From: Sphingomonas sp. EC-HK361 | GTDB taxonomy: Bacteria; Pseudomonadota; Alphaproteobacteria; Sphingomonadales; Sphingomonadaceae | DNA: 64,000 bases | Direction: 5' to 3' | NCBI RefSeq assembly: GCF_902498785.1 | Contig: NZ_LR701493.1 | Location: forward strand, 233,459 to 297,458 | In this document: piece by piece, positions 6,672 to 22,196 of the stretch | Position numbering within the stretch: the stretch's first letter is position 1 | Layout: each line of letters opens with the position of its first letter | Notes under the pieces: generated by a model | The model's input: the letters and a program-made list of their open reading frames with translations, nothing else | Database searches by the model: none | What the model was told of the DNA's origin: nothing | Position numbers and translations under genes: made by a program

Positions 6672-9600
6672 TCAGAACTGGAAGTTGACGGCGAGCGCGT
6701 AGGTGCGGCCGAAATACGCGGTGTAGAGCGGATCCTGGCGCACGGTATCGACGGTCAGGCGGTTCGTCTCGTTGGTGATGTTCGAGACCTCTGCGATCAG
6801 CTTCACATTGTCGTTGATGTTGTACGACGCTGACGCATCGACGAAGATCGAGCTTGCGTTCGCGGTCGAGTCGGCATCCACCGATCCGCTCGGCACCGCT
6901 GTCAGGAACGCCGACCGGTAGTTGACCGTCGAGCGGATGCTGAACTTCTTGTCCTCATAATACAGCGTGCCGCTCGCGGTTTCCGGCGACAGCCCGACGA
7001 GCGCCGCGGTGCGCGAAAGCGTCGGCGAGATGATGTAGTTGATGTTCGAGCGCACGCGCGTGAAGTTGCCCAGCGCCCCGAAATTCCTGAGGAATCCCGG
7101 CAGGAAGCGGAACGGCAGCTGCACGTTCACCTCTAGGCCGTTCAACGGGCCGCCCGGCGTGTTGTTGCTGCGCTGTACGGTGAACTGGTCGGTCGGGCGC
7201 AGCTGCGTGCCCGTCAGCAGCGACAGCGGCAGGCCGATATCCTGGAACGCCACCTGCTGGCTGGTGGTCTGGATATAGGTCTCGATATTCTTGTGGAAAT
7301 ACGCGACCGAGATCAGCGATCCGGGCGCGAAATACCATTCGAGGGACGCATCGAAGGTGTTGGCGCGGATCGGATCGAGGAACGGGTTGCTGAAGCTTGC
7401 GGTCTGGATCACCAGATTGGCCGATCCCGCGGGGATCAGCTGGCCATAGGATGGCCGCGACATGACCCGCGCCGCCGAGAGCCGCGCGATGAGATCGTGC
7501 GTGATATCGATCGCCACGTTCGCCGACGGCAGCCAGTCCTCATAGGACCGGCTGACGTTCGAGATGACGTAGCGCGAGGCGTAGGTCGATCCGGTGGGAT
7601 TGGCGGTCGTGATCGGCCCGTAGGTGTCAAGATCGGTGTGGACATACCGCACGCCCGCATCGCCGCGGATCGCGATCGGCAGCGTGTTTTCGGTATTGAA
7701 TTTCACCATCAAATAGCCGGACTTGTACTTCTCATCGACCCCGCCATAGGTGCCTTTGGCGCATTCCACGCTGCAGTAGACATAGCTGTCCAGCCCGACT
7801 GCCGAGCGGAACTTGTTCGGATCGATGGAGACGAAATCCTGCAACTGCCCGTCTAGGTTGCTGCCGATTCCCCTGGTGACGAAGGCGAAGTCCGCCACGC
7901 TGACGCCAGCGGGGAGCGCAAGCGGCGTGTTGGTCGCCAGCTGGCGTTCGCGCGCGGTGTACCTGTTGGTGCGATACTGGCCGCCGACCTGGACCGTGAA
8001 TCCCGGCGCCGCCTCCCATTCGGTGTTCAGCTCGAAGGTCTTGCTGAGGATCGTGTTGCGGCGGATGAAATTCGAAAGCTGCCCGCGCTGGTCGCCATTT
8101 GTAAGCGGCGGCCCATATTGAAAGAGCGCGGCATTGGTGGTGTCGATGCCGTAGGTGATATTCGGGATGTCCGGATTGTCGCGGAAATCGATCTCCCAGT
8201 TGCGGGTGTCGTTCGAATCGATCGCGACCTGCAGGCGGTTCACATCGAGCACCGACTGGTTGATCCCGGCCATGCCATACACACGGAAATTATCCGAAAA
8301 GCGGTGATCGACGTTGAGGTTCGCCTGCTTGTAGGTCGAGGTAAACCGCTCGTCCTGCATTTCCGAGCGCAGATCGACGCCGTCGAACAGGCCGTGGATC
8401 AGCGATCCGTTCTCATCGACCTCGATATCGCGCACCGACGTCAGCGGCTGGCCGTTGTTCGAGATCGCGCGGCCGAACGAGCGCGCGTCGAAATAGGTGT
8501 CGAGGCGATTGACCTTGAACCGCGAATACAGCCCGTCGAGCGAGATATCGGTGGCGTCGGTCGGCTTCCACTGCAACGTCAGCGATCCGGCCAGCCGGTC
8601 CTGATCCTGCGAGCTCTTCACCGGACGCGGCAGGCGCGGCAGATAGACGCCGCCACCCGGGCGACCGTTCACCCCGGTGCGGCTCATGATATAGTCGTAG
8701 GCCGCCGTCGTGCCGGTGCGCGGGTTGCCGGTGCTGCAATTGTTGGCGTCGGCGCCGATCGGGACGCCGTTGGGTTGGGTGTAGCCGGGGACCGGGCTGT
8801 TCGTCGCGGCGCCGCGATAGGTGTAGCCGACCGGCGTGCAGAACGGGAAGATGACGCCTGCATTCGCGGTGCCGGCGGGTTGCGCCAGGCCATATACCGT
8901 CGTCGGCACCACATCGACCGCCGAATAGGCATATTCGTCGATATGCCGCTTCGAATAGGCGATGCTGCCAAGGATCCCGAAGGTATTGCCGAACTTCTTC
9001 GAAACCAGCGCGGAAAGCCGCGGATCGACGTCGCGGCGGATATCGTTGTAGATGCCGCGCGCGGTGGCGGAGAGGACGAAATCCTTGCGCTGGTCGAACG
9101 GCTTGGGCGCGCGCAGATCGACCGTCGCGCCGAGCGAGCCTTCCTCCACGTCCGCCGACAATGTCTTGCGGACCGAGAGGCTGGAAAAGATCTCGGTCGG
9201 GAACGTCACGAAATCGAACGAGCGACCGGTGGCGACGCCGCCGCGGATATCGCTGCCGCTGACCTGGCTTACGCCTTCCATCCCGTTTATCCGCACCCGG
9301 GTGAACTGCGCGCCAAGGCCGCGAACCGAGATGTTGCGGCCTTCGCCGCCATCGCCGCGGGACAGCGCGACGCCCGGAATGCGCTGCATCGATTCGGCGA
9401 GGTTCGAATCGGGGAACTTGCCGATATCCTCGGCCACGATGCTGTCGATAGCCGCGGTCTCGTTGCGCTTGGCATTCAGCGCGCTGTTCAGCGACGCGCG
9501 GAAGCCGGTGACGACAATGTCCGGGTCGGACGGGCTTTCGGCGCCGCTCTGCGGCACGGCCGCCGGCGCACCGGTCTGGTCGGTCTGCCCTTCGACCGGG

Positions 9601-9722
9601 GCCCCCGGCTGGCTCGTTGGGCTGGGGGCAGTGGTCTGCGCCTGGGCGATCGTCGCCAGAAACATGCTGGCCAGACCCGTCGACACGAGCAGCCGATATT
9701 TGTTCGCGCGCTTGTCCGTCAC
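6672..9722 (-). CDS. TonB-dependent receptor
   Basis: 1016 aa. A signal peptide (residues about 1-28, ending ATIAQAQ) and a Pro/Gln/Ala-rich linker precede the TonB-box-like DIVVTGFRASLNSALNAKR near residue 68. The plug domain has DIGKFPDSNLAESMQRIPGV and RGLGAQFTRVRINGMEG, the layout seen in large carbohydrate-type receptors of sphingomonads. The barrel ends TYALAVNFQF. It probably imports an oligosaccharide across the outer membrane. It is transcribed away from the GntR-regulator gene, from a promoter carrying nested inverted repeats (9763-9830), and ends at a strong terminator. The location next to the hexuronate genes suggests uronic-acid-containing glycans as substrate, an inference only. 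Confidence 0.95.
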   Translation of the reverse strand: MTDKRANKYRLLVSTGLASMFLATIAQAQTTAPSPTSQPGAPVEGQTDQTGAPAAVPQSGAESPSDPDIVVTGFRASLNSALNAKRNETAAIDSIVAEDIGKFPDSNLAESMQRIPGVALSRGDGGEGRNISVRGLGAQFTRVRINGMEGVSQVSGSDIRGGVATGRSFDFVTFPTEIFSSLSVRKTLSADVEEGSLGATVDLRAPKPFDQRKDFVLSATARGIYNDIRRDVDPRLSALVSKKFGNTFGILGSIAYSKRHIDEYAYSAVDVVPTTVYGLAQPAGTANAGVIFPFCTPVGYTYRGAATNSPVPGYTQPNGVPIGADANNCSTGNPRTGTTAAYDYIMSRTGVNGRPGGGVYLPRLPRPVKSSQDQDRLAGSLTLQWKPTDATDISLDGLYSRFKVNRLDTYFDARSFGRAISNNGQPLTSVRDIEVDENGSLIHGLFDGVDLRSEMQDERFTSTYKQANLNVDHRFSDNFRVYGMAGINQSVLDVNRLQVAIDSNDTRNWEIDFRDNPDIPNITYGIDTTNAALFQYGPPLTNGDQRGQLSNFIRRNTILSKTFELNTEWEAAPGFTVQVGGQYRTNRYTARERQLATNTPLALPAGVSVADFAFVTRGIGSNLDGQLQDFVSIDPNKFRSAVGLDSYVYCSVECAKGTYGGVDEKYKSGYLMVKFNTENTLPIAIRGDAGVRYVHTDLDTYGPITTANPTGSTYASRYVISNVSRSYEDWLPSANVAIDITHDLIARLSAARVMSRPSYGQLIPAGSANLVIQTASFSNPFLDPIRANTFDASLEWYFAPGSLISVAYFHKNIETYIQTTSQQVAFQDIGLPLSLLTGTQLRPTDQFTVQRSNNTPGGPLNGLEVNVQLPFRFLPGFLRNFGALGNFTRVRSNINYIISPTLSRTAALVGLSPETASGTLYYEDKKFSIRSTVNYRSAFLTAVPSGSVDADSTANASSIFVDASASYNINDNVKLIAEVSNITNETNRLTVDTVRQDPLYTAYFGRTYALAVNFQF

Positions 9723-9830: not shown

Positions 9831-9894
9831 TCCCGAGAGTGGTCGGGCAAAAAAGCGCGCTTGTCAGCTCGGGGGTGGTCGCGAGGGTGCCGCG

Positions 9895-10638
9895 CTACAC
9901 CGTGCGACGCGCCAGCGCGCGACGGCGCTGGTCGGTCTGCGCCCGTGCGCGCTCCACCGCTTCCGTCTCGTCGACGTGGAGAAGATGGTCGATCACCCGC
10001 GTCAGGTGATCGCGCATCGCCAGCCGCGCCTCCGCCGGATTGCGCGATTCCAGCGCGCGCAGGATTCGCCCATGCTCCTCCAGCCGCTCCTTCGTGCCAA
10101 GGCTCCCGGCCTTGACCAGCACCTGCCGCGCGAGGGGGGAACGAAAGCGCATGTCCCAGAAATCCGTGACCACCGCGATGATCGCGGCGTTGCCCGTCGC
10201 CTCGGCAATGGCGATGTGGAAGCGGCGATCGGCATCCTCGGCAGCGGCATCGTCGTCCTGCGCCATTTCCTTCACCAGCGCGCGCAGGGCCGCGAGCTGG
10301 GCCTCGTCGATTTCGGTCGCTGCGACCGCGGCCACCTCGCCCTCCACGAGCCGGCGCGCCTCGGTGATCTCGAAGGCGCCGATGTCGAGCTCCTCGTCGA
10401 TGTCCCCGCTGGCGGAGGCGAGAACAAACACCCCCGACCCCTTGCGTGCCTCGACCAGGCCCTGCATCTCGAGCGCGATCATCGCCTCGCGCACGGTCGG
10501 ACGGCTGACGCCGAATCGCTCTGTCAGGTCGCGCTCCGCCGGCAGGCGCGAGCCGATGGGGAAGATCCCCGCCGTGATGTCCGCAACGATCGCCTGCACG
10601 ATCCTGCGATACAGTTTTCCGCCGCCCTGCACCTGCAT
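9895..10638 (-). CDS. GntR-family (FadR subfamily) transcriptional regulator, probably of hexuronate genes
   Basis: 247 aa from the ATG at 10638, preferred because AGGA lies 8 bp upstream; a longer frame starts at 10677. N-terminal winged helix: LYRRIVQAIVADITAGIFPIGSRLPAERDLTERFGVSRPTVREAMIALE-type sequence (residues about 8-60), with the typical GSRLPAERDL and SRPTVREAM blocks. The rest is an all-helical FCD effector domain with scattered His and Asp residues for a metal. Relatives (UxuR, ExuR-like, KdgR-like) sense uronates or related acids and bind TGGTNNNACCA-type palindromes. Matching TGGCCNGACCA sites occur in front of the DUF1080 operon, kdgK/uxaC and uxuA in this window, so these are the likely targets. 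Probably a repressor released by a pathway intermediate. Confidence 0.88.
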   Translation of the reverse strand: MQVQGGGKLYRRIVQAIVADITAGIFPIGSRLPAERDLTERFGVSRPTVREAMIALEMQGLVEARKGSGVFVLASASGDIDEELDIGAFEITEARRLVEGEVAAVAATEIDEAQLAALRALVKEMAQDDDAAAEDADRRFHIAIAEATGNAAIIAVVTDFWDMRFRSPLARQVLVKAGSLGTKERLEEHGRILRALESRNPAEARLAMRDHLTRVIDHLLHVDETEAVERARAQTDQRRRALARRTV

Positions 10639-10770
10639 AACATGTCCTATCCCGTTTCGCCGCCGCGCACGCCTCATCGCCGCCGTTCCTGCTCCTCACG
10701 CATCGCGAGGCGCGGCGTCAAGCCCCCGTGATATCGGCACCCATCTGCCCGAATCGGATAAAATGCCTGA

Positions 10771-10806
10771 CAGACTATTGCATGTGGCCGGACCACATTT
10801 TAACAA
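10771..10806 (+). promoter_or_regulatory. Promoter and GntR-type operator of the DUF1080 operon
   Basis: ATGTGGCCGGACCACAT (10782-10798) is an inverted repeat with perfect 6-bp arms. It contains the core TGGCCGGACCA (10785-10795), also seen at 19786 and 20845. The preceding bases CAGACTATTGC (10771-10781) are identical to those before the uxuA site at 20831, giving a -35-like TTGCAT; an A/T-rich -10-like region follows the palindrome. A bound repressor would sit between -35 and -10. Confidence 0.68.
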
Positions 10807-10862
10807 ACGGGTATAAGAGGCTGTGTCGACAACGATCGGCACGCAACAGAGGGACGAGGGCG

Positions 10863-12272
10863 ATGATGGCACCGGGCGACGAACGAAATCTCCCTTTGCG
10901 ACGTGCGCTGGGTCCCTGCGCGCTCGCCGCAGCGGCGCTGCTCACGGCAACGGGGGCTCCCGTCCTGTCCTCACCCGCGGCGACGACACCGCGCGCACCG
11001 TGGCGCGACATCACGCCGAAACCGGGTCTGGCGGGCTACCACAGCACGGGCGGTAACGCCGTCTACGAAGTCGTCGGCGGCGAGCTCGTCGGGCGCGCCA
11101 CACCGGGCAAGACGAACAGCTGGCTCGTCTCTGACGCGACCTATGGCGATTACATCATGGAGTTCGACGCGAAGACCGATCCCCTGCTCAATTCGGGCAT
11201 GATGGTGCGCGGACAGAGCAGGCCCGATTACCGCAACGGCGTGGTCCACGGCTATCAGGCGGAAATCGACCCGAGCCCGCGCGCGTGGAGCGGCGGCATG
11301 TATGACGAGCAGCGCCGCCAGTGGCTCTACTCGCTGGGCCGCAACGAGGCGGCACGGCGCACCTTTCGTTCGGGCGACTGGAATCACTACCGTATCGAGG
11401 CGATCGGCAACCGGCTGCGCACCTGGATCAACGGCGTCCCGGCGACCGACACGGTGGACGATACCGACGCCCGCGGCTTCATCGCCTTTCAGGTTCATGC
11501 CATCCCCGACGAGCAGGCGCGCAAAGGCCCCGAGGCGCGGTTCCGCGCGGTGCGCATCATCACCGACAACCCGGCGCGTTACGCCCTGCCGGAAACCGGG
11601 CTGCCACAGGAAGGCTGGCTGACCAATCGCCTGAGCGCGCGCGAGCAGCGCGCGGGCTGGTCGCTGCTGTGGGACGGGACGAGCGACCGGGGTTGGCGGA
11701 GCGTGACGGCTGCGGGATTCCCGGCAAAGGGCTGGGGAATCGCGGACGGCGTGCTGTCGACGACCGGTGGCGGCGGCGACATCCGGACGGCCGCGCCCTA
11801 CCGCGATTTCGAGCTTTCGGTGGATTTTCGGCTGACCCGCGGCGCGAACAGCGGGATCAAATACCGCGTCGCGCCGGGCACACGCTCGCTCGGGCTCGAA
11901 TATCAGCTGCTCGACGACGACCGGCATCCGGATGCGAAGATGGGCCGCGACGGCAACCGCACACTCGCCTCGCTCTACGACCTCATCCCCGCGCGCAATC
12001 TTTCCGACCCGGCGAGTCCGGGCAAGCGCACCAACCCGCCCGGGGAGTGGAACCGCGCGGTGATCGTCGTGCGCGGCAACCATGTCGAGCACTGGCTGAA
12101 CGGGTTCAAGGTCGTCGAATATGACCGCGCATCGCCCGCCTTCCGCGCGGCGGTGGCGGCCAGCAAGTTCGCCGGCGAACAGGGATTCGGCACGTGGCCG
12201 CAGAGTCCGATCGTGCTGCAGGACCACGGCGACCGGGTGGACTTCCGCTCGATCAAGCTGCGCAAACTCTAA
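10863..12272 (+). CDS. Secreted protein with two DUF1080 (3-keto-disaccharide hydrolase-like) domains
   Basis: 469 aa from the ATG at 10863, with GAGGG 5 bp upstream; the frame continues upstream to 10728 through the promoter, so the longer form is unlikely. A signal peptide (residues about 14-38) leads into two DUF1080 / laminin-G-like domains, about residues 45-225 and 250-469. The second contains the usual LLWDGTSDRGWRS and NSGIKYRV blocks. DUF1080 (PF06439) members hydrolyse 3-keto glycosides in periplasmic pathways. It is the first gene of an operon with Gfo/Idh oxidoreductases and lies behind a uronate-type operator. The tandem domain arrangement may mean one domain binds and the other cleaves; this is inference. 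Confidence 0.82.
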   Translation: MMAPGDERNLPLRRALGPCALAAAALLTATGAPVLSSPAATTPRAPWRDITPKPGLAGYHSTGGNAVYEVVGGELVGRATPGKTNSWLVSDATYGDYIMEFDAKTDPLLNSGMMVRGQSRPDYRNGVVHGYQAEIDPSPRAWSGGMYDEQRRQWLYSLGRNEAARRTFRSGDWNHYRIEAIGNRLRTWINGVPATDTVDDTDARGFIAFQVHAIPDEQARKGPEARFRAVRIITDNPARYALPETGLPQEGWLTNRLSAREQRAGWSLLWDGTSDRGWRSVTAAGFPAKGWGIADGVLSTTGGGGDIRTAAPYRDFELSVDFRLTRGANSGIKYRVAPGTRSLGLEYQLLDDDRHPDAKMGRDGNRTLASLYDLIPARNLSDPASPGKRTNPPGEWNRAVIVVRGNHVEHWLNGFKVVEYDRASPAFRAAVAASKFAGEQGFGTWPQSPIVLQDHGDRVDFRSIKLRKL

Positions 12273-12285
12273 GGGGAGATCGGCC

Positions 12286-13599
12286 ATGATGGACCGTCGC
12301 ACGGTAGTCAAAGGTATGGGCGCCACGATCGGCGCCGCGATGACCGCGAAAAGCTATGCGCGGATCAAGGGCGCGAACGATCGCATCAACGTCGCGACGA
12401 TCGGCGTCAACGGGCGCGGGCAGGCGCATATTGCCGCGTTCACGAAAGTGCCGAACGTATCGCTGACGCATATCGTCGATTGCGATTCGGCGGTGCTGGC
12501 GAAGCGCGTCGCCGCGTTTTCGGAGCGTGGGCTACCCGTCCCCCGCACCGAAAGCGACTATCGCCGGCTGTTGCAGAACAAGGACGTCGATATCGTCACT
12601 GTTGCAACGCCCGACTTCAGCCATGTGAAGATCGCGACCGATGCGATGAACGCCGGCCACCACGTTTATTGCGAGAAACCGGTTGGAATCTCGCCCGCGG
12701 AGGGCGAGGCGATGATCGCGGTGCAGAAGCGCACCGGGCGCAAGCTGCAGATCGGCAACCAGCAGCGCTCCAGCCCCGAAACGCGGCAGCTGGCCGACCT
12801 CGTCAAGGCGGGTGATCTCGGTCACATCTACGAGGCGCAGACCTGGTATGCGAATGCGCGCAAGCCGATCGGCCACGGCAAGCGCGTGTCCCCGCCGGCG
12901 ACGCTCGACTGGGACATGTGGCAGGGTCCTCGGCCGCGTGCTGCCTATCGGTCCAATCTGGTGCCCTATAACTGGCACTGGGTGTGGCAATACGGCACGG
13001 GCGAGATCTGCAACAACGGCATGCACGAGATCGACGTCGCGCGCTGGCTGATGGGGCTGACCTATCCCAGCCAGGTGGAAGCGCGCGGCCAGAGGCAGTT
13101 CTTCAACGACGACGATTGGGACATGTACGACAGCATGGCCCTGACGCTGGCATTCGACGGCGACCGGACGATTCGCTGGGACGGCCAGAGCGGCAATGCG
13201 ATGCTGCGCTACGGTCGCGGGCGCGGGGTGCTGCTGCTGGGGACCAAGGGCTCGGCCGTCGTCGATCGCAACGGCTACGAACTCTACGACCTGTCGGGCA
13301 AGCAAACGCGCGTCGTGAAGGCGGCGGGCGAATCGGAGACGACCGGCACCGTCGGCGAGGGCGTCCTCGACATCTATCACGCAGGCAATCTCGTCGATAA
13401 CGTCCGCGGCAAGTCGACGACGCTCAATTCGCCGATTGCGGAGGGGCATATCAGCACCACGCTCTGTCACCTGGGAAACATGGCCTACCGCACGGGCGAA
13501 ATACTCACCGTCGATCCGAAGACGGGCAGGCCGAAAAGCGCGGAAGCGCTGAAATTGTGGGCGGTCGATTACCAGCCGGGTTGGGAGATCAAGGTCTGA
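12286..13599 (+). CDS. Gfo/Idh/MocA oxidoreductase with twin-arginine-like leader
   Basis: 437 aa. The start ATG at 12286 has AAGGGGAG upstream; the frame extending further upstream overlaps the preceding gene and is not used. The N-terminus MMDRRTVVKGMGATIGAA resembles a Tat signal. The Rossmann motif reads INVATIGVNGRGQAHI (residues about 34-50), and the Gfo/Idh motif CEKPVG at about 130 holds the EKP signature. The C-terminal alpha/beta domain carries NNGMHEIDVARWLMG. Such proteins use tightly bound NAD(P) to oxidise or reduce a sugar hydroxyl. In this operon they probably interconvert 3-keto and 3-hydroxy sugars. It lies 13 bp after the DUF1080 gene. Confidence 0.87.
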   Translation: MMDRRTVVKGMGATIGAAMTAKSYARIKGANDRINVATIGVNGRGQAHIAAFTKVPNVSLTHIVDCDSAVLAKRVAAFSERGLPVPRTESDYRRLLQNKDVDIVTVATPDFSHVKIATDAMNAGHHVYCEKPVGISPAEGEAMIAVQKRTGRKLQIGNQQRSSPETRQLADLVKAGDLGHIYEAQTWYANARKPIGHGKRVSPPATLDWDMWQGPRPRAAYRSNLVPYNWHWVWQYGTGEICNNGMHEIDVARWLMGLTYPSQVEARGQRQFFNDDDWDMYDSMALTLAFDGDRTIRWDGQSGNAMLRYGRGRGVLLLGTKGSAVVDRNGYELYDLSGKQTRVVKAAGESETTGTVGEGVLDIYHAGNLVDNVRGKSTTLNSPIAEGHISTTLCHLGNMAYRTGEILTVDPKTGRPKSAEALKLWAVDYQPGWEIKV

Positions 13600-13604
13600 A
13601 CGCG

Positions 13605-14471
13605 GTGACGAAGCCGGTCGCGGGTGCGGTGGAACGGTTCGCTGCCATGGGCACGCGGATCGAGCTGCACGTCTTCGGCCCCGGCGCGAGCGAGGGAAGC
13701 TTTGCGGACGCCCTCGCCGCCGCACGCCGCACGGTCGAGGCGGTGGACGATGCGCTGACGATCCACCGGCCGTCGCCCGCCACCGCGCTCAACGAGGCGC
13801 TGATGGCCGGGACAACGGCTGCGATCGACGACCCCCTGCTCTTCGACGCGCTGGCCGTCGTCGATGACGAATATGCCGCCACCCTCGCGCTGTTCGACGT
13901 GGCCGCCGATCGATATCGCGGCGGAGCCTGGTCGCAGGTGTCGCTCGATCGCGCTGCACGACGAATCACCGCAACAGGATTGCTGGCGCTCGATTTCGGG
14001 GGAATGGGCAAGGGATTCGCGCTCGACCATGCAGCGGCGGCCCTGCGTGATGGCGGCGTCACCTCGGCGCTGCTGAGCGCGGGCGAAAGCTCGATCGTTG
14101 TCATCGGCGAGCATCCGCTTGGCGGCAGCTGGCCGTTCGCGATTCCGCACCCGCTACGCCCGCACGAAACGCTGGTGGAGTTGCAGTTGACCGATGCGGC
14201 GCTCTCGATCTCGGCGACCGTCGGAGCAGGGCTCGATGCGCCCGAGCGCTCGGCAACGCTTCGTCCTGGGGGCGGCACGCCCGTCACCGCGCCGCGCTGC
14301 ACCGCCGCCATCGCGACCACGGGCACGCTCGCGGAGATGATGAGCACCGCGCTGCTCGCCGCCGACGCGGCGCAGGCGCAGCACCTGATCGCGGATGCGC
14401 CCCGCGCGCGCTTTCGCTTCGACCTGAACGGCGCCCGGACGGCGCCTCTTGGAGATCTGATCCCAGCATGA
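13605..14471 (+). CDS. Divergent ApbE-like FAD:protein FMN transferase
   Basis: 288 aa from GTG 13605, 5 bp after the previous stop. The N-terminal RFAAMGTRIELHVFG and the flavin-site segment ALDFGGMGKGFALDHAAAA (about residue 130) match ApbE (PF02424). The usual H-I-x-D-P-x-T-G block is degenerate (SATLRPGGGTPV), and the metal-binding A-D-A-x-x-T segment reads AEMMSTAL, so Asp is replaced by Glu. No signal peptide or lipobox is seen, unlike periplasmic ApbE. Family role: covalent transfer of FMN to a Thr of exported flavoproteins. Whether this one is active is uncertain. It is coupled by ATGA to the next Gfo/Idh gene, which suggests a role in that pathway. Confidence 0.78.
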   Translation: MTKPVAGAVERFAAMGTRIELHVFGPGASEGSFADALAAARRTVEAVDDALTIHRPSPATALNEALMAGTTAAIDDPLLFDALAVVDDEYAATLALFDVAADRYRGGAWSQVSLDRAARRITATGLLALDFGGMGKGFALDHAAAALRDGGVTSALLSAGESSIVVIGEHPLGGSWPFAIPHPLRPHETLVELQLTDAALSISATVGAGLDAPERSATLRPGGGTPVTAPRCTAAIATTGTLAEMMSTALLAADAAQAQHLIADAPRARFRFDLNGARTAPLGDLIPA

Positions 14472-15745
14472 CCGATGAGACGTTCGAACTCTCCCGCCGG
14501 CGCTTCCTCGACAGCGTGCTGGGCGCCACCGCTGCGGCAGGTGTCGCCGCCGCGGCCCCCTGGGCAGCGAGCGCGGCGGCGCAGACGCTGGCCGCACCCG
14601 TGCCGCGATCGGGCGACCGCGTAAGGCTGGCCGTGCTTGGCACCGGCGACCGCGGGCGGGCGCTCATCCGCAACATCCAGAAGACGCGCAACTGCACGGT
14701 CGTCGCGGTGTGCGACACCTATGCGCCGCATCTGGCGAAGGCGCGCGAGATCGTGGGCGCGGCGGTGCCCGCCTTCACCGATCACCGCCGAATGCTCGAT
14801 GCGGGCAGATATGATGCAATCGTCATCGCGACGCCCTTGAACCTGCACGCAGCCCATGCCGCGGCCGGGTTCGACGCGGGACTCCACGTCTGGTGCGAAA
14901 AGGCGATGGCGCGCACGATCGCGGATTGCGGCGCGATGATCACAGGCGCGCGCAAAGCGGGCAAGGTGCTGCAGATCGGCCACCAGCGCATGTTCCATCC
15001 AACCTATCTGAACGCGCTGAAGCGCGTGAAGGCGGGGGACATCGGCTCGATCACCCAGGTCCGCGCAAGCTGGCACCGCAACAACAGCTGGCGCCGCCCC
15101 GTCCCCGCCGACGCGACCGACCGCCAGATCAACTGGCGCCTATACCGCGACAGCTCGGCCGGTCTGATGACCGAGCTTGCGACCCATCAGCTACAGGTCT
15201 GCAACTGGTTCATGGACAGCGTGCCGACGCGCGTCATGGGATCGGGAAGCATCTGCTTCTGGAAAGACGGTCGCGAGGTCTACGACCACGTCGCGCTGGT
15301 TTATGAGTATGCCGGCGGCCGCAAGGTCATCTACACCTCGTTGCTGAACAATGCGCGCTATGGCTGCGAGGAGCAGATTCAGGGCAGCAAGGGCACGATC
15401 GAGCCAGAGCTCGGCCGCATCTTTGCCGAGGTGCCGCCCAAGCAGCTCCAGCTCCAGCGCATGCATCAGGACATCGCGCGCGGCCACAAGCGCACCGTGC
15501 CGATCGGCGGCGCCACGTGGTTCCCGGAGCTGCCCGTCACCACCCCCGGCGAGTCGCTGGGGTGGAGCGCGTATGACGAGACGATGCTGCAGTTCGAGGG
15601 CTTTGGCGAGGCGGTGCGCACCGGCAAGCCGCTGCCCGGGCTGCTCGCCCAGGCCTATTGGGCGAGCGTCGCCTCGCTGCTTGGCGAGCATGCGATGGAC
15701 CGCGGCGAAGCGATGACATGGCCGACCGATCTGATCGCGGTCTGA
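14468..15745 (+). CDS. Gfo/Idh/MocA oxidoreductase with Tat signal
   Basis: 425 aa, start ATG overlapping the ApbE-like stop as ATGA (14468-14471). A clear twin-arginine leader, LSRRRFLDSVLGATAAAGVA, ends before about residue 40, so the enzyme is exported folded with its cofactor. The Rossmann motif is RLAVLGTGDRGRALI (residues about 52-66), and the EK signature appears as CEKAMA near 142 rather than EKP. The C-terminal domain has GLMTELATHQLQVCNWFM. Likely a periplasmic NAD(P)-dependent sugar dehydrogenase acting on the products of the DUF1080 hydrolase. It is one of three Gfo/Idh paralogues in this operon; the three are clearly different proteins. Confidence 0.88.
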   Translation: MTDETFELSRRRFLDSVLGATAAAGVAAAAPWAASAAAQTLAAPVPRSGDRVRLAVLGTGDRGRALIRNIQKTRNCTVVAVCDTYAPHLAKAREIVGAAVPAFTDHRRMLDAGRYDAIVIATPLNLHAAHAAAGFDAGLHVWCEKAMARTIADCGAMITGARKAGKVLQIGHQRMFHPTYLNALKRVKAGDIGSITQVRASWHRNNSWRRPVPADATDRQINWRLYRDSSAGLMTELATHQLQVCNWFMDSVPTRVMGSGSICFWKDGREVYDHVALVYEYAGGRKVIYTSLLNNARYGCEEQIQGSKGTIEPELGRIFAEVPPKQLQLQRMHQDIARGHKRTVPIGGATWFPELPVTTPGESLGWSAYDETMLQFEGFGEAVRTGKPLPGLLAQAYWASVASLLGEHAMDRGEAMTWPTDLIAV

Positions 15746-15767
15746 TCCGACAACAGGAGTAAGCGAA

Positions 15768-16922
15768 GTGACCGATCCCAGCCGCCGCGATCTCATCGGC
15801 CTTGCGCTCGCCACCGGCCTGTCGGGGATGGCGGCCGAGGCGCTGGCGCAATCGACAACCCGCGGCGACGCACCGACCGAAAGCGCCCCAGCACGCCCCG
15901 CCCCGGACGCGAAATACCGCGTGCCGTTCGCGGTCATCGGGCTCGATCACAACCATATCTATGGCATCACCGATGCGATGATCCGCGGCGGCGGCGTCCT
16001 GACCGCCTTCTACGCCGCCGACCCGAAACAGGTCGCGGCGTTCCGGAAACGCTATCCGGGCGTGCGCCTCGCGCGATCCGAAGACGAGATCATCGAGGAC
16101 AGGGCGATCAAGCTGGTCTGCAGCGCGGCGATCCCCGCCCTGCGCGCGCCGCTGGGCATCAAGGTGATGCGCGCGGGCAAGGATTACCTCAGCGACAAGG
16201 CGGCGGTGGTCACCCTGAAGCAGCTGGCCGAGGTGCGCGCGGCGATCAAGGCGACGGGGCGCAAGTTCGGGATCATGTATTCCGAACGGCTGGAGGTGCC
16301 CGCCGCGGTGATGGCGGGGCAGCTGGTCCATGACGGCGCGATCGGCCGCGTCATCCAGACCGTGAACCTTGCGCCGCACCGCGTCGCCGCCCCCACGCGC
16401 CCCGCATGGTTCTGGGACCCTGCGCTCAACGGCGGCATCCTGACCGACGTCGGCAGCCATCAGGCGGACCAGTTCGTGTATCTGACCGGCAGCAAGCGCG
16501 CGAGCGTGCTGGCCGCGCAGGTCGGCAATTTCGGGAATCCGGATCACCCCAAGTTCCAGGATTTCGGCGACATGATGATGCACGGCGACGGCGGGGCCGG
16601 CTATGTCCGCGTCGATTGGTTCACCCCCGACGGGCTACCGACCTGGGGGGACGGCCGGCTCTTCATCCTTGGCAGCGAAGGCTATATCGAGCTGCGCAAA
16701 TATGTGGACATTGCCGGGCGGCCGGGCGGCAACCATCTGTTCATCGCGGACAAAAAGGGCACGCGCTACATCGACTGCGCGAAGGTGCCGCTGCCGTTCG
16801 GGCCGCAGTTCATCGCCGATCTGGTCGAGCGGACATCGGTGGCGCAGGATCAGGACGGCGCGCTGCTTGCCGCGGAGCTGGTGCTTACCGCCTCGGCGAA
16901 GGCGACAACGGCGACTGCCTAG
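15768..16922 (+). CDS. Gfo/Idh/MocA oxidoreductase with Tat signal
   Basis: 384 aa, GTG start at 15768 with AGGAG at a good distance. Twin-arginine-type leader PSRRDLIGLALATGLSG ending near EALAQ. The NAD(P)-binding half starts at FAVIGLDHNHIYGITDAMI (about residue 48), and the usual EKP is replaced by SDKAAVVTLKQ (about 143), so lysine is kept. The second domain contains LNGGILTDVGSHQADQFVY. This subfamily of small exported Gfo/Idh proteins recurs in 3-keto-glycoside loci. It is the last gene of the plus-strand operon and overlaps the convergent uxuB by 4 bp. Confidence 0.87.
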   Translation: MTDPSRRDLIGLALATGLSGMAAEALAQSTTRGDAPTESAPARPAPDAKYRVPFAVIGLDHNHIYGITDAMIRGGGVLTAFYAADPKQVAAFRKRYPGVRLARSEDEIIEDRAIKLVCSAAIPALRAPLGIKVMRAGKDYLSDKAAVVTLKQLAEVRAAIKATGRKFGIMYSERLEVPAAVMAGQLVHDGAIGRVIQTVNLAPHRVAAPTRPAWFWDPALNGGILTDVGSHQADQFVYLTGSKRASVLAAQVGNFGNPDHPKFQDFGDMMMHGDGGAGYVRVDWFTPDGLPTWGDGRLFILGSEGYIELRKYVDIAGRPGGNHLFIADKKGTRYIDCAKVPLPFGPQFIADLVERTSVAQDQDGALLAAELVLTASAKATTATA

Positions 16923-18289
16923 TCGTCGCGTACCAGCCGCGTCAGTTCGGCACGGTCATCCGCGTCAAGTGCGTATGCGGCCGGCATCAGCCCGCGCGTT
17001 CCGAACACCGCGTCCACCACGCCCTGCGCGCCGCCGCGCCAGCACGCCATGAGCGCCGCGCTGCGCGGATCGTCTGCCGGCGCGCGCACGAAGCGCAGCC
17101 ACGCTGCCAGCGCGATCAATGTCGCAGGCGAACGTCGCCCGCGCGCGCGATTGATCGCCAGCGGCGCGAGCCAGCGCGGGCCGATCTTCTGCGATCCGTC
17201 GGTAGCGATCTGCGCTAGCCGGTGCGGCAGCGCCGGATTGGCAAAGCGCGCGAGCAGCGCGTCGGCGTAGGCGGTGAGATCCTGCCCCGGCGCGGCATCC
17301 ACCGTCGGCGCCGCCTCCCACCGCATCAGTTCCTCCACCGTTACACGGATGACCGGATCGGCGATCGCTTCGTGGACATGCGCATGGCCCGCGGCGAGCC
17401 CGAGATAGGCAAGCGCCGAATGCGCGCCGTTGAGCATGCGCAGTTTTGCGGTTTCGAACGGGCGCACATCGGCGGCGAACTGCGCGCCACCCGCCTCCCA
17501 GCGCGGGCGCGGGCCGGCAAAGCGATCCTCGATCACCCATTGGCGAAACGGTTCGGTGACGATCGCGCCCGCGTCGCGCAGGCCGAGACGCGCTTCCGCG
17601 TCATCCAGCATTACCGCCGTCGCGGCGGGCACGATGCGATCCACCATGGTGGACGGGCACGCACAGCAATCGGCAAACCAGCGTGCCAGCGACGGGTCGG
17701 TCTCGTCGAGCCACGCCGCCACAGCACGTCCGAGCTTGGCGCCATTTTCCGCCAGATTGTCGCAGCTGACGAGCGTGAGGCCGGGCAGTCCCCGCGCCCG
17801 CCGCTCGGCAAGCCCGGTCGCCAGATAGTGATACAGCCCCTCCCCGCTCGCCCGCACAGCCGCCAGGTCGAGCGCGCCGCCGGCCCCGAGCTGATAGGCC
17901 TTCTCGGTCACCGTCAGTGTCACGACCCGCGTATCCGGATCGGCGAGCGCCGCGACAACCGCGCTTGGGTTCTGCGGCGCGACCAGCACATCGCGCAGCG
18001 CGCCGGCCAGTTGCACGCGCTCGCCATCCCCGCCGCGCTCGGTCACGGTGTAGAGCCCGTCCTGCGGCGCGAGCGCTTCGGCGACGCTCGCGGAGCGAAG
18101 CGAAACGCCGGTGATCGACCAGTCGCGGTCCCCGGCCGCCATGGCAGCGTCGGTATAGACCGCCTGATGCGCACGCGCGAACGCGCCGATCCCGATATGG
18201 ACGATCCCGCGCCTTTGCGCCGCGCGATCGTAACCCGGATGCACGACGCCAGCCGGCAGGTGCCGGGCGGTCGCTGCCGAGAGCCTCAC
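16919..18289 (-). CDS. uxuB: Mannitol dehydrogenase family protein, probably fructuronate reductase (D-mannonate oxidoreductase)
   Basis: 456 aa. The N-terminal NAD-binding segment RGIVHIGIGAFARAHQAVY, the family signature CPSTMVDRIVPA (about residue 210) and KLRMLNGAHSALAYLGL (about 280) identify the polyol / mannonate dehydrogenase family. Reaction expected from context: NADH-dependent reduction of D-fructuronate to D-mannonate in the cytoplasm. The start GTG overlaps the uxaC stop as GTGA (18286-18289), so the two are translationally coupled. Mannitol 2-dehydrogenase is the alternative within the family, but the uxaC-uxuA-kdgK neighbourhood makes UxuB far more likely. Convergent with the Gfo/Idh gene at 15768. 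Confidence 0.9.
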   Translation of the reverse strand: MRLSAATARHLPAGVVHPGYDRAAQRRGIVHIGIGAFARAHQAVYTDAAMAAGDRDWSITGVSLRSASVAEALAPQDGLYTVTERGGDGERVQLAGALRDVLVAPQNPSAVVAALADPDTRVVTLTVTEKAYQLGAGGALDLAAVRASGEGLYHYLATGLAERRARGLPGLTLVSCDNLAENGAKLGRAVAAWLDETDPSLARWFADCCACPSTMVDRIVPAATAVMLDDAEARLGLRDAGAIVTEPFRQWVIEDRFAGPRPRWEAGGAQFAADVRPFETAKLRMLNGAHSALAYLGLAAGHAHVHEAIADPVIRVTVEELMRWEAAPTVDAAPGQDLTAYADALLARFANPALPHRLAQIATDGSQKIGPRWLAPLAINRARGRRSPATLIALAAWLRFVRAPADDPRSAALMACWRGGAQGVVDAVFGTRGLMPAAYALDADDRAELTRLVRDD

Positions 18290-19698
18290 ACGCGGTACGC
18301 CCGGCGTACCAGGCCACTGGTCAATTCATGCGCGAGGTCCGCCGCTTCCCAGTCGGCCAGGCGATGTTCCGCCACGAGCCGCGCGAGGAAAGCACAGTCG
18401 ATGCGCCGAGCCACGTCGTGCCGCGCAGGAATCGACAGGAACGCGCGCGTATCGTCGTTGAACCCGACGGTGTTGTAAAAACCCGCCGTTTCGGTCGTCA
18501 TCTCGCGGAAGCGGCGCATGCCCTCGGGCGAATCGTGAAACCACCAGGCCGGCCCAAGGCGCAGGCAGGGATAGTGGCCCGCCAGCGGCGCGAGCTCGCG
18601 GGTGTAGGTGTCCTCGTCCAGCGTGAAGAGGATGATTGTGAGGCCCAGCTCGTTGCCGACCACGTCGAGCATCGGCTTGAGCGCCCGGACGAATTCCGCC
18701 TGCACCGGGATGTCCGCGCCCTTGTCCCGGCCATGCGTCGCGAACAGGCGGGCATTGTGGTTGCGATAGGAGCCAGGATGGATCTGCATCACCATGCCGT
18801 CCGCGACGCTCATCTTCGCCATCTCGGTGAGCATCTGCGCGCGGAACAGTTCGGCATCGTCGGGCGACCACGTGCCGCCGACGATCCGCGCGAACAGCGC
18901 CTCGCATTCCGCGGTGGAAAGGTTCGCGGTCGCCGCGCTGGCATGGCCGTGATCGGTCGCGGTCGCGCCAAGATCGCGGAACGCGGTGCGCCGCTTTGCG
19001 TGCGCCGCGAGATAGCCCGACCAGCTGTGCACGTCCTCCCCGGTCAGGGCAGCGAAACGCTCCATCGCATCGGCGAACGCCTCATGCTCGACATCGATGA
19101 CGCCGTCGGGGCGATAGGTGGTGACGACCCTACCCTGCCAGCCCGACCCGCGGATTGCGCGGTGGTGCGCCAGATCGTCGTGCGCGCCTTCGGTCGTCGC
19201 GAGGAAATCGATGCGGAACTGCTCGAACAGGGCGCGCGGGCGGAACGCGTCGCTCGCCAGCCGCTCGCCGATCGTGTCGTAATATCGATCCGCCGTGCTC
19301 GCATCGAGCGCCACCTCAAAGCCGAACACCTCGGCGAAGACGTGATCGAGCCACAATTGCGATGGAGTGCCGCGGAACAGATGATACCGCTCGGCAAAAG
19401 CGCGCCACGCCGCGCGCGGATCGGTATCGGGCACGCCGTCGCGATGCGGAATCGCCAGCGTGTCGAGATCGATGCCCTGGCTGTAGAGCATGCGGAAGAC
19501 GTAGTGGTCGGGCTGCAGCAACAGGCTCGTCGCATCCGTCCACGGCGCGTTGGTGGCGAACCATGCAGGGTCGACATGGCCATGCGGACTGACGATCGGC
19601 AGCGTGCCGACCTCCGCATATAGCGCGCGTGCGATATCACGCTGCACGGGATCGCTGGAGAACAGGCGATCGGGATGGAGCGACAACGGACGGGTCAT
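18286..19698 (-). CDS. uxaC: Glucuronate isomerase
   Basis: 470 aa from the ATG at 19698; a TTG at 19707 with a closer AGGA is an equally possible start. Contains the metal-site SPHGHVDPAWFATNAPW near residue 37 and the long UxaC amidohydrolase-like barrel with SQGIDLDTLAIP. Catalyses D-glucuronate to D-fructuronate (and galacturonate to tagaturonate), the first step of hexuronate breakdown. The length is normal for the family. First gene of a two-gene operon with uxuB, transcribed away from kdgK. A TGGCCTGACCA operator-like site lies 87 bp upstream of the ATG. Confidence 0.95.
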   Translation of the reverse strand: MTRPLSLHPDRLFSSDPVQRDIARALYAEVGTLPIVSPHGHVDPAWFATNAPWTDATSLLLQPDHYVFRMLYSQGIDLDTLAIPHRDGVPDTDPRAAWRAFAERYHLFRGTPSQLWLDHVFAEVFGFEVALDASTADRYYDTIGERLASDAFRPRALFEQFRIDFLATTEGAHDDLAHHRAIRGSGWQGRVVTTYRPDGVIDVEHEAFADAMERFAALTGEDVHSWSGYLAAHAKRRTAFRDLGATATDHGHASAATANLSTAECEALFARIVGGTWSPDDAELFRAQMLTEMAKMSVADGMVMQIHPGSYRNHNARLFATHGRDKGADIPVQAEFVRALKPMLDVVGNELGLTIILFTLDEDTYTRELAPLAGHYPCLRLGPAWWFHDSPEGMRRFREMTTETAGFYNTVGFNDDTRAFLSIPARHDVARRIDCAFLARLVAEHRLADWEAADLAHELTSGLVRRAYRV

Positions 19699-19785
19699 GG
19701 ACGGCAACCGATCCTGATTGCCGATAGCGGTGACCTTGCTTGTCGCATCGAACCCTCCTTCTGGCCATGCCTAGCAGCGGCAAAG

Positions 19786-19796
19786 TGGCCTGACCA
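19786..19796. promoter_or_regulatory. GntR-type operator between uxaC and kdgK
   Basis: TGGCCTGACCA, identical to the uxuA site at 20845 and one base different from the DUF1080-operon site at 10785. It is placed in the 190-bp divergent intergenic region, so it could control both uxaC-uxuB (minus) and kdgK (plus). The half-sites TGG and CCA match FadR-subfamily consensus operators. Confidence 0.65.
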
Positions 19797-19888
19797 GTGG
19801 CCGCGTAAATCTGCGCCGGTTCGTTGACATGCCGGCCGACGCTGCTCATCCAATGCGACCGGACGAACCGAAAGGCGCGCTGCGGACA

Positions 19889-20797
19889 ATGCCGGATATC
19901 GTGATGGTCGGAGAGGGAATGATCGAGCTGTCGCGCGCCGACGCCGCTGGCGGCTGGCGACTGGCCCATGGCGGCGACACGCTCAACACCGCAATCCATC
20001 TGGCGCGCCTCGGCGACCGCGTCCGCTACCTCACAGCAATTGGCGACGATCCGTTCAGCGCCGGTTTGCGTGCCGACTGGGCCGCGGAAGGCATCAATAC
20101 TGCGCTCACCCTGACCGAGCCAAACGCAAGTCCGGGCCTTTACGCAATCGCCACCGACGACGCGGGGGAGCGCACCTTCACCTATTGGCGCAGCGACAGC
20201 GCCGCGCGGCGCGTGTTCGGCGCACCCGGAATCGCAGCGGCGGTCGAGCAAGCGGCGAGCGCCGACCTGCTCGGCTTCTCGCTCATCAGCCTTGCGATCC
20301 TGCCCGACGAGGGACGCAACGCGCTGCTCGCGCTGGCCGAACGCGTCCGCGCAAATGGCGGCGGCGTCGCGTTCGATGGCAATTACCGTCCGCGACTGTG
20401 GCGCGACGCGGCGGAGGCTCGATCCTGGCGCGACCGGGCGGTCGCGACGTGCAGCATCGGACTTCCCACCGCCGAGGACGAGGCGCTGATCGGCGACGCA
20501 GATTACGCCGCTGCCATCGCCGCACGCTGGCGGTCGCTTGGCGCGGGCGAGGTCGTCGTGAAGCTGGGTGCGCGCGGCGCCCTGGTGGATGGCGAAATCG
20601 TGCCGCCGCCTGCCCGCCTGACCCCGCGCGACACCAGCGGGGCGGGGGACGCCTTCAACGCCGGCTATCTCCACGCGCGACTGAGCGGCACCGCGCCCGC
20701 CGACGCGGCGCTGGCCGGTCACCGCCTCGCCGGGTGGGTGGTTATGCGCCCCGGTGCGATCCCAGGCCGCGATGACGGCGCCGCTTACGATGGCTGA
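19889..20797 (+). CDS. kdgK: PfkB-family sugar kinase, probably 2-dehydro-3-deoxygluconokinase
   Basis: 302 aa from the ATG at 19889, placed so that the protein starts MPDIVMVGEGMIELS as usual for the family; an ATG at 19829 would add 20 residues. The PfkB C-terminal signature DTSGAGDAFNAGYL (about residue 248) with the catalytic Asp is intact, and the N-terminal GGDTLNTAIHLARLG binds sugar. Reaction from context: ATP-dependent phosphorylation of 2-keto-3-deoxygluconate to KDPG, which then enters the Entner-Doudoroff route. The KDPG aldolase gene is not in the window. Divergent from uxaC and 154 bp upstream of uxuA on the same strand. Confidence 0.9.
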   Translation: MPDIVMVGEGMIELSRADAAGGWRLAHGGDTLNTAIHLARLGDRVRYLTAIGDDPFSAGLRADWAAEGINTALTLTEPNASPGLYAIATDDAGERTFTYWRSDSAARRVFGAPGIAAAVEQAASADLLGFSLISLAILPDEGRNALLALAERVRANGGGVAFDGNYRPRLWRDAAEARSWRDRAVATCSIGLPTAEDEALIGDADYAAAIAARWRSLGAGEVVVKLGARGALVDGEIVPPPARLTPRDTSGAGDAFNAGYLHARLSGTAPADAALAGHRLAGWVVMRPGAIPGRDDGAAYDG

Positions 20798-20830
20798 ACC
20801 TCCGCCACAATCTGCTCATCCTATGTAAGA

Positions 20831-20855
20831 CAGACTATTGCCCGTGGCCTGACCA
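20831..20855 (+). promoter_or_regulatory. Promoter and GntR-type operator of uxuA
   Basis: TGGCCTGACCA at 20845-20855 preceded by CAGACTATTGC at 20831-20841. The latter 11 bases and their spacing to the palindrome match the site at 10771-10795 exactly, so this is a conserved promoter-operator unit. TTGCCC would be the -35, and TATAGG just after the palindrome the -10 region. It controls uxuA and probably the MFS carrier behind it. Confidence 0.68.
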
Positions 20856-20951
20856 ATGTATAGGTTGATGTCGTTGCCAAGGTGATGGAGCGGCAGGAAG
20901 TCGCTTTGTCCGGTCGGGAGGGGAGGAACGGGTGATCCGGTTGGCGAAGAC

Positions 20952-22142
20952 GTGGCGTTGAACGACACTCACCCGGTATTGATGACCCAGACGATGCGCT
21001 GGTTCGGCCCGACGGACCCGGTATCGCTGCGCGATATCCGCCAGGCGGGCGCCAGCGAGGTGGTCACCGCGCTTCACGAAATACCCAACGGCGAGGTCTG
21101 GCCGCAGGAGGCTATCGCCGCCCGGCGCGACGAAATTATGCGCGCAGGCCTCGGCTGGACCGTCGTCGAAAGCCTGCCCGTGCACGAGGCGATCAAGCTC
21201 GGCACCGCGGACCGCGACCGCTGCCTTGATGCGTATCGCCAGAGCCTGCGTCATCTGGCGCGCGCGGGCATCAAGGTCGTCACCTACAATTACATGCCGC
21301 TGCTCGACTGGACCCGCACCGATCTCGCCTACGCCATGCCCGACGGCGCGCTGGCACTCCGTTTCGAGCCCGTCGCGCTCGCCGCCTACGACATCCACAT
21401 CCTGAAGCGCCCCAACGCCGCTGAAAGCTACGACGACGCGGTGCGCGAGCGCGCCGACAGGCGTTTCCACGCGATGGACGACGCCGCGCGCCGCAAGCTG
21501 GAGCGCACGATCATCGCCGGCCTGCCCGGCAGCGAGGAGAGCTTCACCTCGGCAGAGTTTCTGCGCGCCATCGAAGGATATGAAGGGATCGACGAGGACC
21601 GCCTGCGCGAGCACCATATTGCCTTCCTCGAGGCCGTCTGCCCGGTGGCGGAGGAAGAGGGCGTGCAACTGGTCGTGCACCCGGACGACCCGCCCTTCTC
21701 GATCTTCGGCCTGCCGCGGGTGGTGAGCACCGAGGCCGACGCGACCGCGCTGTTCGCGCGGGTGCCGAGTGCCAGCAACGGCCTGTGTTTCTGTGCCGGC
21801 TCATTCGGGTCGCGGAAAGACAACGATCTTCCCGGCATGGTCGAGCGGCTGGGCGACCGCATCGGCTTCGTCCATCTGCGCTCGGTTCAGCACAAACCCG
21901 ACGGGTCCTTCCACGAGGCCGCACATCTAGAGGGACATGCCCGCATGCCCGAGATCGTCGCCGCGCTGCACCGCCTGCAGCAGCGGTCCGGGCGATCGAT
22001 CCCCATGCGGCCCGACCACGGCCACCAGATGATGGACGATCTACGCCGGGTCACCAACCCGGGCTATTCGCTGCTCGGCCGGATGCGCGGGCTGGCCGAA
22101 CTGCGCGGATTGGAACGCGGCATCGCCCACGCCGCAGCCTGA
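20952..22142 (+). CDS. uxuA: Mannonate dehydratase
   Basis: 396 aa, from GTG 20952; the ribosome site is weak and an ATG at 20982 (MTQTMRWFG) is a possible alternative. Diagnostic UxuA blocks: MRWFGPTDPVSLRDIRQAGA at the N-terminus, VVESLPVHEAIKLG, ITYNY-like VVTYNYMPLLDWTRTDL, LVVHPDDPPFSIFGLPRVV and the C-terminal MRPDHGHQMMDDL with metal-binding His and Asp. Catalyses D-mannonate to 2-keto-3-deoxygluconate with a divalent metal, the step between UxuB and KdgK. Followed by the MFS carrier 54 bp downstream. Confidence 0.95.
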   Translation: MALNDTHPVLMTQTMRWFGPTDPVSLRDIRQAGASEVVTALHEIPNGEVWPQEAIAARRDEIMRAGLGWTVVESLPVHEAIKLGTADRDRCLDAYRQSLRHLARAGIKVVTYNYMPLLDWTRTDLAYAMPDGALALRFEPVALAAYDIHILKRPNAAESYDDAVRERADRRFHAMDDAARRKLERTIIAGLPGSEESFTSAEFLRAIEGYEGIDEDRLREHHIAFLEAVCPVAEEEGVQLVVHPDDPPFSIFGLPRVVSTEADATALFARVPSASNGLCFCAGSFGSRKDNDLPGMVERLGDRIGFVHLRSVQHKPDGSFHEAAHLEGHARMPEIVAALHRLQQRSGRSIPMRPDHGHQMMDDLRRVTNPGYSLLGRMRGLAELRGLERGIAHAAA

Positions 22143-22196
22143 AACAACAGGGCGAACAAACCGCCAATGAGCGAAAACACAGGAGAGGGCACGACC

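Follow-up and report, generated by a model that had tools for sequence, protein, structure and literature searches.

The sites considered here lie in a 64,000-nucleotide stretch of the Sphingomonas sp. EC-HK361 genome (contig NZ_LR701493.1, positions 233,459 to 297,458 of the forward strand; hereafter the window), among the genes for a FadR-subfamily GntR regulator, a TonB-dependent receptor, an operon of the 3-keto-glycoside type, and the hexuronate catabolic enzymes of the Ashwell pathway (table 1). Genes were called with a codon-model gene caller, and families were assigned with Pfam and NCBIfam profile models and their curated cut-offs. The operon, with the gene order DUF1080-Gfo-ApbE-Gfo-Gfo, spans 10863-16922 on the + strand. 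The gene names proposed in a first-pass annotation of the same DNA, made from the sequence alone, agree with these assignments: UxaC and UxuA score above curated cut-offs, the KdgK-like and UxuB-like proteins score below them, and the DUF1080 protein contains two matched stretches. The double DUF1080 assignment is clear; the Gfo proteins match glycoside 3-dehydrogenase models below cut-off only.

Table 1. Operator-like sites, putative promoter elements, and genes of the regulator-operon locus in the window
Feature	Position	Strand	Context or evidence
Operator TGGCCGGACCA	10785..10795	+	DUF1080 operon/regulator divergon, inside -35/-10 spacer
Operator TGGCCTGACCA	19786..19796	+	uxaC/kdgK divergon
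Operator TGGCCTGACCA	20845..20855	+	uxuA promoter spacer
Probable degenerate operator TTGCCCGACCA	9840..9850	-	TonB-receptor promoter, 117 bp upstream of receptor
Box-like TGTCATGCA	9819-9827		22 bp from TTGCCCGACCA
Upstream dyad box TGCCTGACA	10764..10772	+	Centre 22 bp from operator centre
Putative -35 element TTGCAT	10778..10783	+	TA 17 bp downstream in 39/41 units; pairwise identity 0.88 vs 0.37-0.44 in flanks
Putative -10 element TAACAA	10801..10806	+	17-bp spacing rule
Upstream dyad box TGTCTTACA	20824..20832	-	Centre 22 bp from operator centre
Putative -35 element TTGCCC	20838..20843	+	
Putative -10 element TAGGTT	20861..20866	+	17-bp spacing rule
TonB-dependent receptor	6672..9722	-	TIGR01782 above cut-off
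FadR-subfamily GntR regulator, ExuR/UxuR-like	9895..10638	-	GntR HTH + FCD
Double-DUF1080 (3-keto-disaccharide hydrolase) protein, operon gene 1	10863..12272	+	PF06439, two matched stretches
Gfo/Idh/MocA oxidoreductase	12286..13599	+	Nearest NCBIfam model BT_2158 glycoside 3-dehydrogenase, 139 of 750 bits, below cut-off
ApbE-family protein	13557..14471	+	Pfam; start 13647 by gene caller
Gfo/Idh/MocA-type oxidoreductase	14468..15745	+	NCBIfam matches below cut-off
Gfo/Idh/MocA oxidoreductase	15768..16922	+	Pfam, NCBIfam
UxuB-like fructuronate reductase, mannitol dehydrogenase family	16919..18289	-	Below NCBIfam cut-off
uxaC, glucuronate isomerase	18286..19707	-	NCBIfam equivalog above cut-off; start 19698 or 19707
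kdgK-like sugar kinase	19829..20797	+	Below NCBIfam cut-off; start probably 19889 (gene caller)
uxuA, mannonate dehydratase	20952..22142	+	NCBIfam equivalog above cut-off; start probably 20982 (gene caller)
MFS transporter	22167..23483	+	Nearest NCBIfam model D-galactonate transporter, below cut-off; Pfam

Exact matches to TGGCCNGACCA occur on the + strand of the window only at the three core sites reported in the first-pass annotation (10785-10795, 19786-19796, and 20845-20855), and all three are intergenic. When the 4642 intergenic bases were dinucleotide-shuffled 2000 times, the motif was found 0.012 times on average, once at most, and never three times. With one mismatch allowed, the window contains nine matches versus 4.26 expected; because nine are reached in 3 of 100 shuffles, such matches alone carry little weight. 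Two further intergenic one-mismatch matches to the broader pattern TGGYCNKRCCA lie at 19762 and 22187. The site at 10785 forms a perfect 6+5+6 inverted repeat, ATGTGG-CCGGA-CCACAT.

Two of the sites had also been described as parts of a conserved unit that includes 11 identical upstream bases. The bases CAGACTATTGC are indeed identical at 10771-10781 and 20831-20841, at equal distance from the operator, and the unit reads as the promoter around the operator; as a free-standing element, CAGACTATTGC was rejected, since it consists of the tail half of a second, upstream dyad and the start of the -35 element. An alignment of 33 regulator-DUF1080 divergon regions contains a conserved island, composed of AAATGYCTKACA, a few bases, TTGCATG, the operator, and a TA, within diverged surroundings. 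Across 30 of these regions with aligned operators (L032, L033, and L055 were left out for gaps in the operator columns; L055 has a one-mismatch operator site nearby), the average identity between pairs is highest at the TA (1.0), followed by TTGCNNG (0.88), the box (0.87), and the operator (0.80), versus 0.37 in the upstream and 0.44 in the downstream flank. We then considered 41 distinct units, 39 from the genus scan described below and 2 from the window, many of them from close relatives and all chosen for TTGC and the operator, so that only the TA and the dyad are independent tests. The TA follows TTGCNN by exactly 17 bp in 39 of the 41; other spacers from 10 to 23 bp account for 0-3 units each, except for 10 units at a spacer of 23. 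The dyad, written as TGYCWKRCA in either orientation, reaches the full score of 9/9 in 36 units (vs 0.9% of shuffled upstream regions), and in 38 units its distance from the operator centre is 21-23 bp. Its TGYCTKACA form has the seven-base core GYCNKAC in common with the operator, and in the uxuA promoter it stands in reverse orientation (TGTAAGACA), as is possible for a dimer site. From these patterns, we read the unit as a putative -35 element, a 17-bp spacer that holds the operator, and a putative -10 element, with a second dyad approximately two helical turns upstream. The TGYCTKACA dyad of the cluster promoters (10764-10772 and 20824-20832) outlasts operator decay and may serve either the same regulator, as its second site, or an activator.

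Genome-wide specificity of the motif was measured in the genomes of relatives. The bare 11-mer TGGYCNKACCA has 13-41 strand matches per genome in eight relatives, and its backward control is commoner in all eight (55-90). Site-by-site contexts were obtained for S. corticis, G002, G006, and G008, in which the sites are mostly inside genes, and counts only for G001, G003, G005, and G007. The S. corticis genome has 12 unique sites, 9 genic and 3 intergenic, and the latter are precisely the regulator/DUF1080, TonB, and uxuA promoters of the cluster; G006 and G008 have 18 unique sites each, with 2 of 4 and 1 of 6 intergenic sites in the cluster, respectively, and the DUF1080 operator of G008 was apparently miscalled as coding because the gene caller extended the regulator start. 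In the 707 kb of 35 regulator-centred loci, of which 91% is coding, TGGYCNGACCA is found 31 times in intergenic and 3 times in coding DNA and TGYCTKACA 43 and 5 times, compared with 0 and 8 for the backward operator and 2 and 4 for the backward box; as all of these loci are regulator-centred, the counts do not extend to the frequency of the dyad box in whole genomes. Much greater selectivity is seen with the 18-bp unit TTGCNNGTGGYCNGACCA, which matched 39 times across 295 Sphingomonas genomes, 38 of which contain it, versus 4 matches for its reversed control. The contexts of 38 of the 39 fit the regulon: 32 precede DUF1080 genes, 5 precede TonB receptors, and 1 precedes uxuA (the match in L209 was called coding, apparently through an extended regulator start). 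The exception precedes a 283-aa gene of no assigned family that is divergent from the regulator. Frequent occurrence in unrelated places, which the first-pass annotation had named as counting against a regulon, is therefore true of the bare 11-mer and not of the 18-bp unit. A looser form of the 18-bp pattern with two mismatches showed no advantage over its control in the majority of seven genomes.

Two further arrangements were seen in these genomes. A 283-aa protein without a Pfam match replaces the DUF1080 operon opposite the regulator and operator in L229 (529-1380) and L026 (8865-9716). In L205, L214, L228, and L230, a regulator paralogue with 49-50% identity is divergent from a TonB receptor that has the 18-bp unit in its promoter; this paralogue may have the same operator as the main regulator.

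The three-site regulon of the first-pass annotation stands in its sites and should probably be extended to the TonB receptor, since the sequence at 9840-9850 is probably a fourth, weak, degenerate operator. The corresponding sites of L001, L003, and L012 (ATGCCCGACCA, ATGCCGGACCA, and GTGCCGGACCA) score 9/11 only and lie 121-124 bp from the TonB start, versus 117 bp in the window, and a box-like dyad is located 22 bp from the site in each of the three and in the window. Among 33 TonB-promoter regions, the window included, 10 match TGGYCNKRCCA in full, at 106-220 bp upstream of the start, 4 (the window among them) match it at 10/11 positions, and 19 at 8-9/11, which is the chance level.

The regulator matches PF00392 (GntR) with 77.2 bits and PF07729 (FCD) with 82.5 bits, both above cut-offs. 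A search kept 80 of 107 candidate relatives, and R36, S45-R46-P47-T48, R50, E51, G67, and the FCD residues D137, H141, H189, and H211 are invariant in 81 of 81 sequences; in relatives, the last four serve to bind a metal. DNA-contact residues of FadR include R35, R45, T47, R49, and G66 (PMC4494728), and their equivalents R36, R46, T48, R50, and G67, aligned to FadR by eye, are invariant in the same 81 sequences. The same source gives TKGT-N3-ACMA as the FadR-subfamily operator, assigning a 3-nt spacing to regulators that include ExuR and a 2-nt spacing to UxuR. The ACCA half of the window operators fits this consensus exactly; the other half is TGGC, with C for T, and is TGGT in many relatives, the operator being exactly TGGTCWGACCA in Caulobacter L050 and L037. 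Both the domains and the fit to the consensus bear out the earlier description of a FadR-type regulator with TGG...CCA-style operators.

The regulator is 78-85% identical in 35 loci, all titled Sphingomonas except for one titled Microvirga, and neighboring genes are also kept in most of those inspected. The exception (L008, Microvirga sp. SRT01) matches Sphingomonas in gene order and has 79% regulator identity, so its name is probably wrong. Of the 38 unit-bearing genomes, 24 have a close regulator orthologue, versus 45 of 295 overall (Fisher 1e-13, a value that ignores relatedness), and the other 14 unit-bearing genomes all have a homologue with 48-54% identity. In nine of these 14, the operator stands before DUF1080 or TonB genes with no adjacent regulator within the stretch inspected. 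Their best regulator homologues lie elsewhere, and each of the nine is preceded, at 42-54 bp, by a TGGYCNKRCCA-type site of its own; three of them are divergent from the mannonate dehydratase ManD (~1.5 kb inspected on each side). Given that the operator is kept at loci unlinked to the regulator, linkage alone is no explanation. In agreement with the first-pass annotation, we predict that a single FadR-type regulator recognizes the sites and links the DUF1080 operon with the hexuronate genes, based on the family-typical operator, the phylogenetic footprint, the genus-wide specificity of the 18-bp unit, the retention at unlinked loci, and the uronate genes found beside distant orthologues.

In the window, operators precede the Ashwell-pathway genes uxuA and uxaC/kdgK, and in relatives they precede uxuA and ManD. 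Caulobacter L050 has the palindrome TGGTCTGACCA between a GH67 alpha-glucuronidase gene and ManD, adjoining the regulator, and L037 has TGGTCAGACCA likewise beside GH67. Sphingomonas L068 has sites before ManD and the regulator, before a 623-aa gene without a family match, before a TonB receptor gene that precedes one of the alginate-lyase family, and before GH88, which precedes DUF4861. The sites at GH67, ManD, GH88, and alginate-lyase genes of distant orthologues tie the regulator lineage to uronate-releasing enzymes, which suggests that the DUF1080 operon takes that place in the lineage of the window. The 623-aa gene of L068 (10836-12707) is downstream of the regulator with an operator 20 bp upstream; it matches neither Pfam nor NCBIfam models at the thresholds applied, and possibly encodes a new uronate-related enzyme.

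A second cluster of the 3-keto type, at 23539-33.7 kb of the window, encodes a DUF1080 protein, two Gfo proteins, a GMC oxidase, gluconate 2-dehydrogenase subunit 3, a cytochrome c, three AP_endonuc_2 proteins, and a Nuc_H_symport transporter, and a LacI-type regulator gene adjoins it at 33885-34910. No intergenic TGGCCNGACCA-type site within one mismatch was found in this cluster, so the hexuronate link is specific to one of the two 3-keto clusters.

We consider it quite probable, from the sequence evidence above, that an ExuR/UxuR-like repressor co-controls hexuronate catabolism, the TonB receptor, and the 3-keto-glycoside operon through these operators. The regulon itself is well supported; we infer binding, repression, the direction of control (from the promoter geometry), the effector, and a substrate that yields uronate. 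Several observations weigh against this interpretation. The regulator falls below the curated NCBIfam cut-offs for ExuR, its best model (144.7 of 396 bits), and UxuR (122.6 of 442 bits), and the FadR contacts T44 and T46 are replaced by S45 and P47, with K or H at position 66 for H65. The published extra boxes are located 7-12 nt from the centre (PMC4494728), versus 21-23 here. The pattern TGGYCNGRCCA fits 18 of the 30 aligned DUF1080 promoters, the operator being drifted or degenerate in the other 12; it has decayed in the DUF1080 promoters of S. desiccabilis (G002) and L012, and none of the 3 intergenic sites among the 19 unique sites of G002 is in the cluster. Full operator matches in TonB promoters are limited to the 10 of 33 given above. 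Six uxaC loci in relatives have no full operator, with two one-mismatch matches present, and S. aerophila (G001) lacks a uxaC match; uxaC is an inconstant member of the regulon.

Chance matches hardly merit belief as the source of the sites. One-mismatch matches carry little weight and the core is common in coding DNA, though less so than its backward control; chance is rejected by the intergenic shuffles and the genus-wide scan for the sites at 10785 and 20845, and the site at 19786 rests on the window count and its position. The 11-mer core is common to other FadR-type regulators, including E. coli LldR and those covered by the quoted FadR operator consensus, and for that reason does not by itself name the binding protein. 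Another FadR-subfamily protein of the same genome could then bind the sites, with the adjacent regulator as a bystander, and ten relatives searched have 6-24 GntR homologues each (E <= 0.001). We regard this as very unlikely given that the sites cluster around the adjacent regulator in dozens of species, that all three intergenic sites of S. corticis are in the cluster even though its next homologue by score has 31% identity, and that unit-bearing genomes are enriched in the close orthologue, with 48-54% homologues in the remainder.

It is somewhat less improbable, though still unlikely, that the unit is an activation platform instead of a roadblock, the activator being either the regulator or a different protein at the upstream dyad. 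By the proposed geometry the dyad is centred near -45, and it is conserved as well as the operator and is still present in L012 and L003, whose operators have decayed; however, an operator inside the -35/-10 spacer occupies the classical position for repression, no dyad was seen by eye at the distant autoregulatory sites, and the characterized ExuR and UxuR proteins are repressors. A much stronger alternative, to which we assign somewhat less than even chances, accepts the regulon and holds that the 3-keto operon acts on a different sugar from the same polymer or plant glycoside, its induction simply coinciding with that of the hexuronate genes. We found no uronate-specific feature in the operon enzymes, and the substrates that PMC9007349 names for DUF1080 proteins, 3-ketotrehalose and the proposed 3'-ketolactose, are neutral 3-keto sugars; the cleaving enzymes in the regulon of distant orthologues, in contrast, belong to the uronate-type families GH67, GH88, and alginate lyase.

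The ExuR/UxuR-like protein most likely acts as a repressor: a dimer bound to the operator that fills the 17-bp spacer of the DUF1080 and uxuA promoters would exclude RNA polymerase from the -35 and -10 elements, and a second dimer, probably on the same DNA face at the upstream dyad, could possibly strengthen repression. Binding of a sugar-acid effector (glucuronate, fructuronate, mannonate, or KDG) to the FCD domain would release the repressor and turn on the Ashwell pathway (uxaC, uxuB, uxuA, and kdgK), the MFS transporter, the TonB receptor, and the 3-keto-glycoside operon together. On this regulation alone, the substrate of the operon is probably a uronoside. We tentatively suggest, as an idea that could well prove wrong, an oxidative deglycosylation of glucuronosides in which TonB-dependent import, 3-oxidation by Gfo/Idh/MocA proteins, and cleavage by the double-DUF1080 protein would deliver uronate to UxaC-UxuB-UxuA-KdgK under one ExuR-like repressor; such a route, if true, would replace the GH67/GH88-type cleavage held in the regulon of distant orthologues. 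To our knowledge, few DUF1080/Gfo 3-keto operons have a known substrate. This scarcity is in line with PMC9007349, and an operator that ties one 3-keto operon of the window, and not the second, to hexuronate catabolism gives a testable substrate class and inducer. The 18-bp signature, moreover, locates the regulon in part of the genus (38 of 295 genomes).

Elsewhere in the window, a tryptophan-halogenase-family protein adjoins a DUF6445 protein (2824-5015), close to the end of a TonB receptor gene (3-728) and to a 670-aa gene (815-2827) that matches no Pfam family.

Among top-ranked open-access literature, with RegPrecise and subscription papers outside the scope, we found no paper on such a Sphingomonas regulon, on the combination of 3-keto operon and receptor, or on the promoter architecture. 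A GntR-family UxuR has been predicted in Rhodobacteraceae, where it was assigned to the UxaC pathway and tied to an ABC transporter (PMC5507952), so the kind of regulon is known; the Rhodobacteraceae protein is likewise an alphaproteobacterial GntR regulator of this pathway, and, unlike in the window, the consulted part of that source links it to an ABC transporter and gives neither 3-keto genes nor a motif. In the lactate regulon of E. coli, the LldR box AAnTGGTCnGACCAnTT occurs twice per target (PMC10272880); it is similar to the window operator, also in being paired, and has different targets. The 3-keto operon resembles the Caulobacter lactose system of LacABC and a DUF1080 protein proposed to hydrolyse a 3-keto-glycoside (PMC9007349). 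Caulobacter uses the membrane-bound LacABC dehydrogenase, whereas three Gfo/Idh/MocA-type proteins and ApbE take its place in the operon described here; the window also contains a GMC-type set (23.5-33.7 kb), which lacks an operator. As in the ExuR/UxuR hexuronate regulons, the system has a FadR-type regulator, the 3-nt spacing of ExuR (2 nt in UxuR), and uxaC, uxuA, and kdgK/uxuB-like targets; unlike in those regulons, its regulator is far below the model cut-offs, a TonB receptor and a 3-keto-glycoside operon are added, and the promoter that contains the operator has a second dyad at a distance of 21-23 bp.

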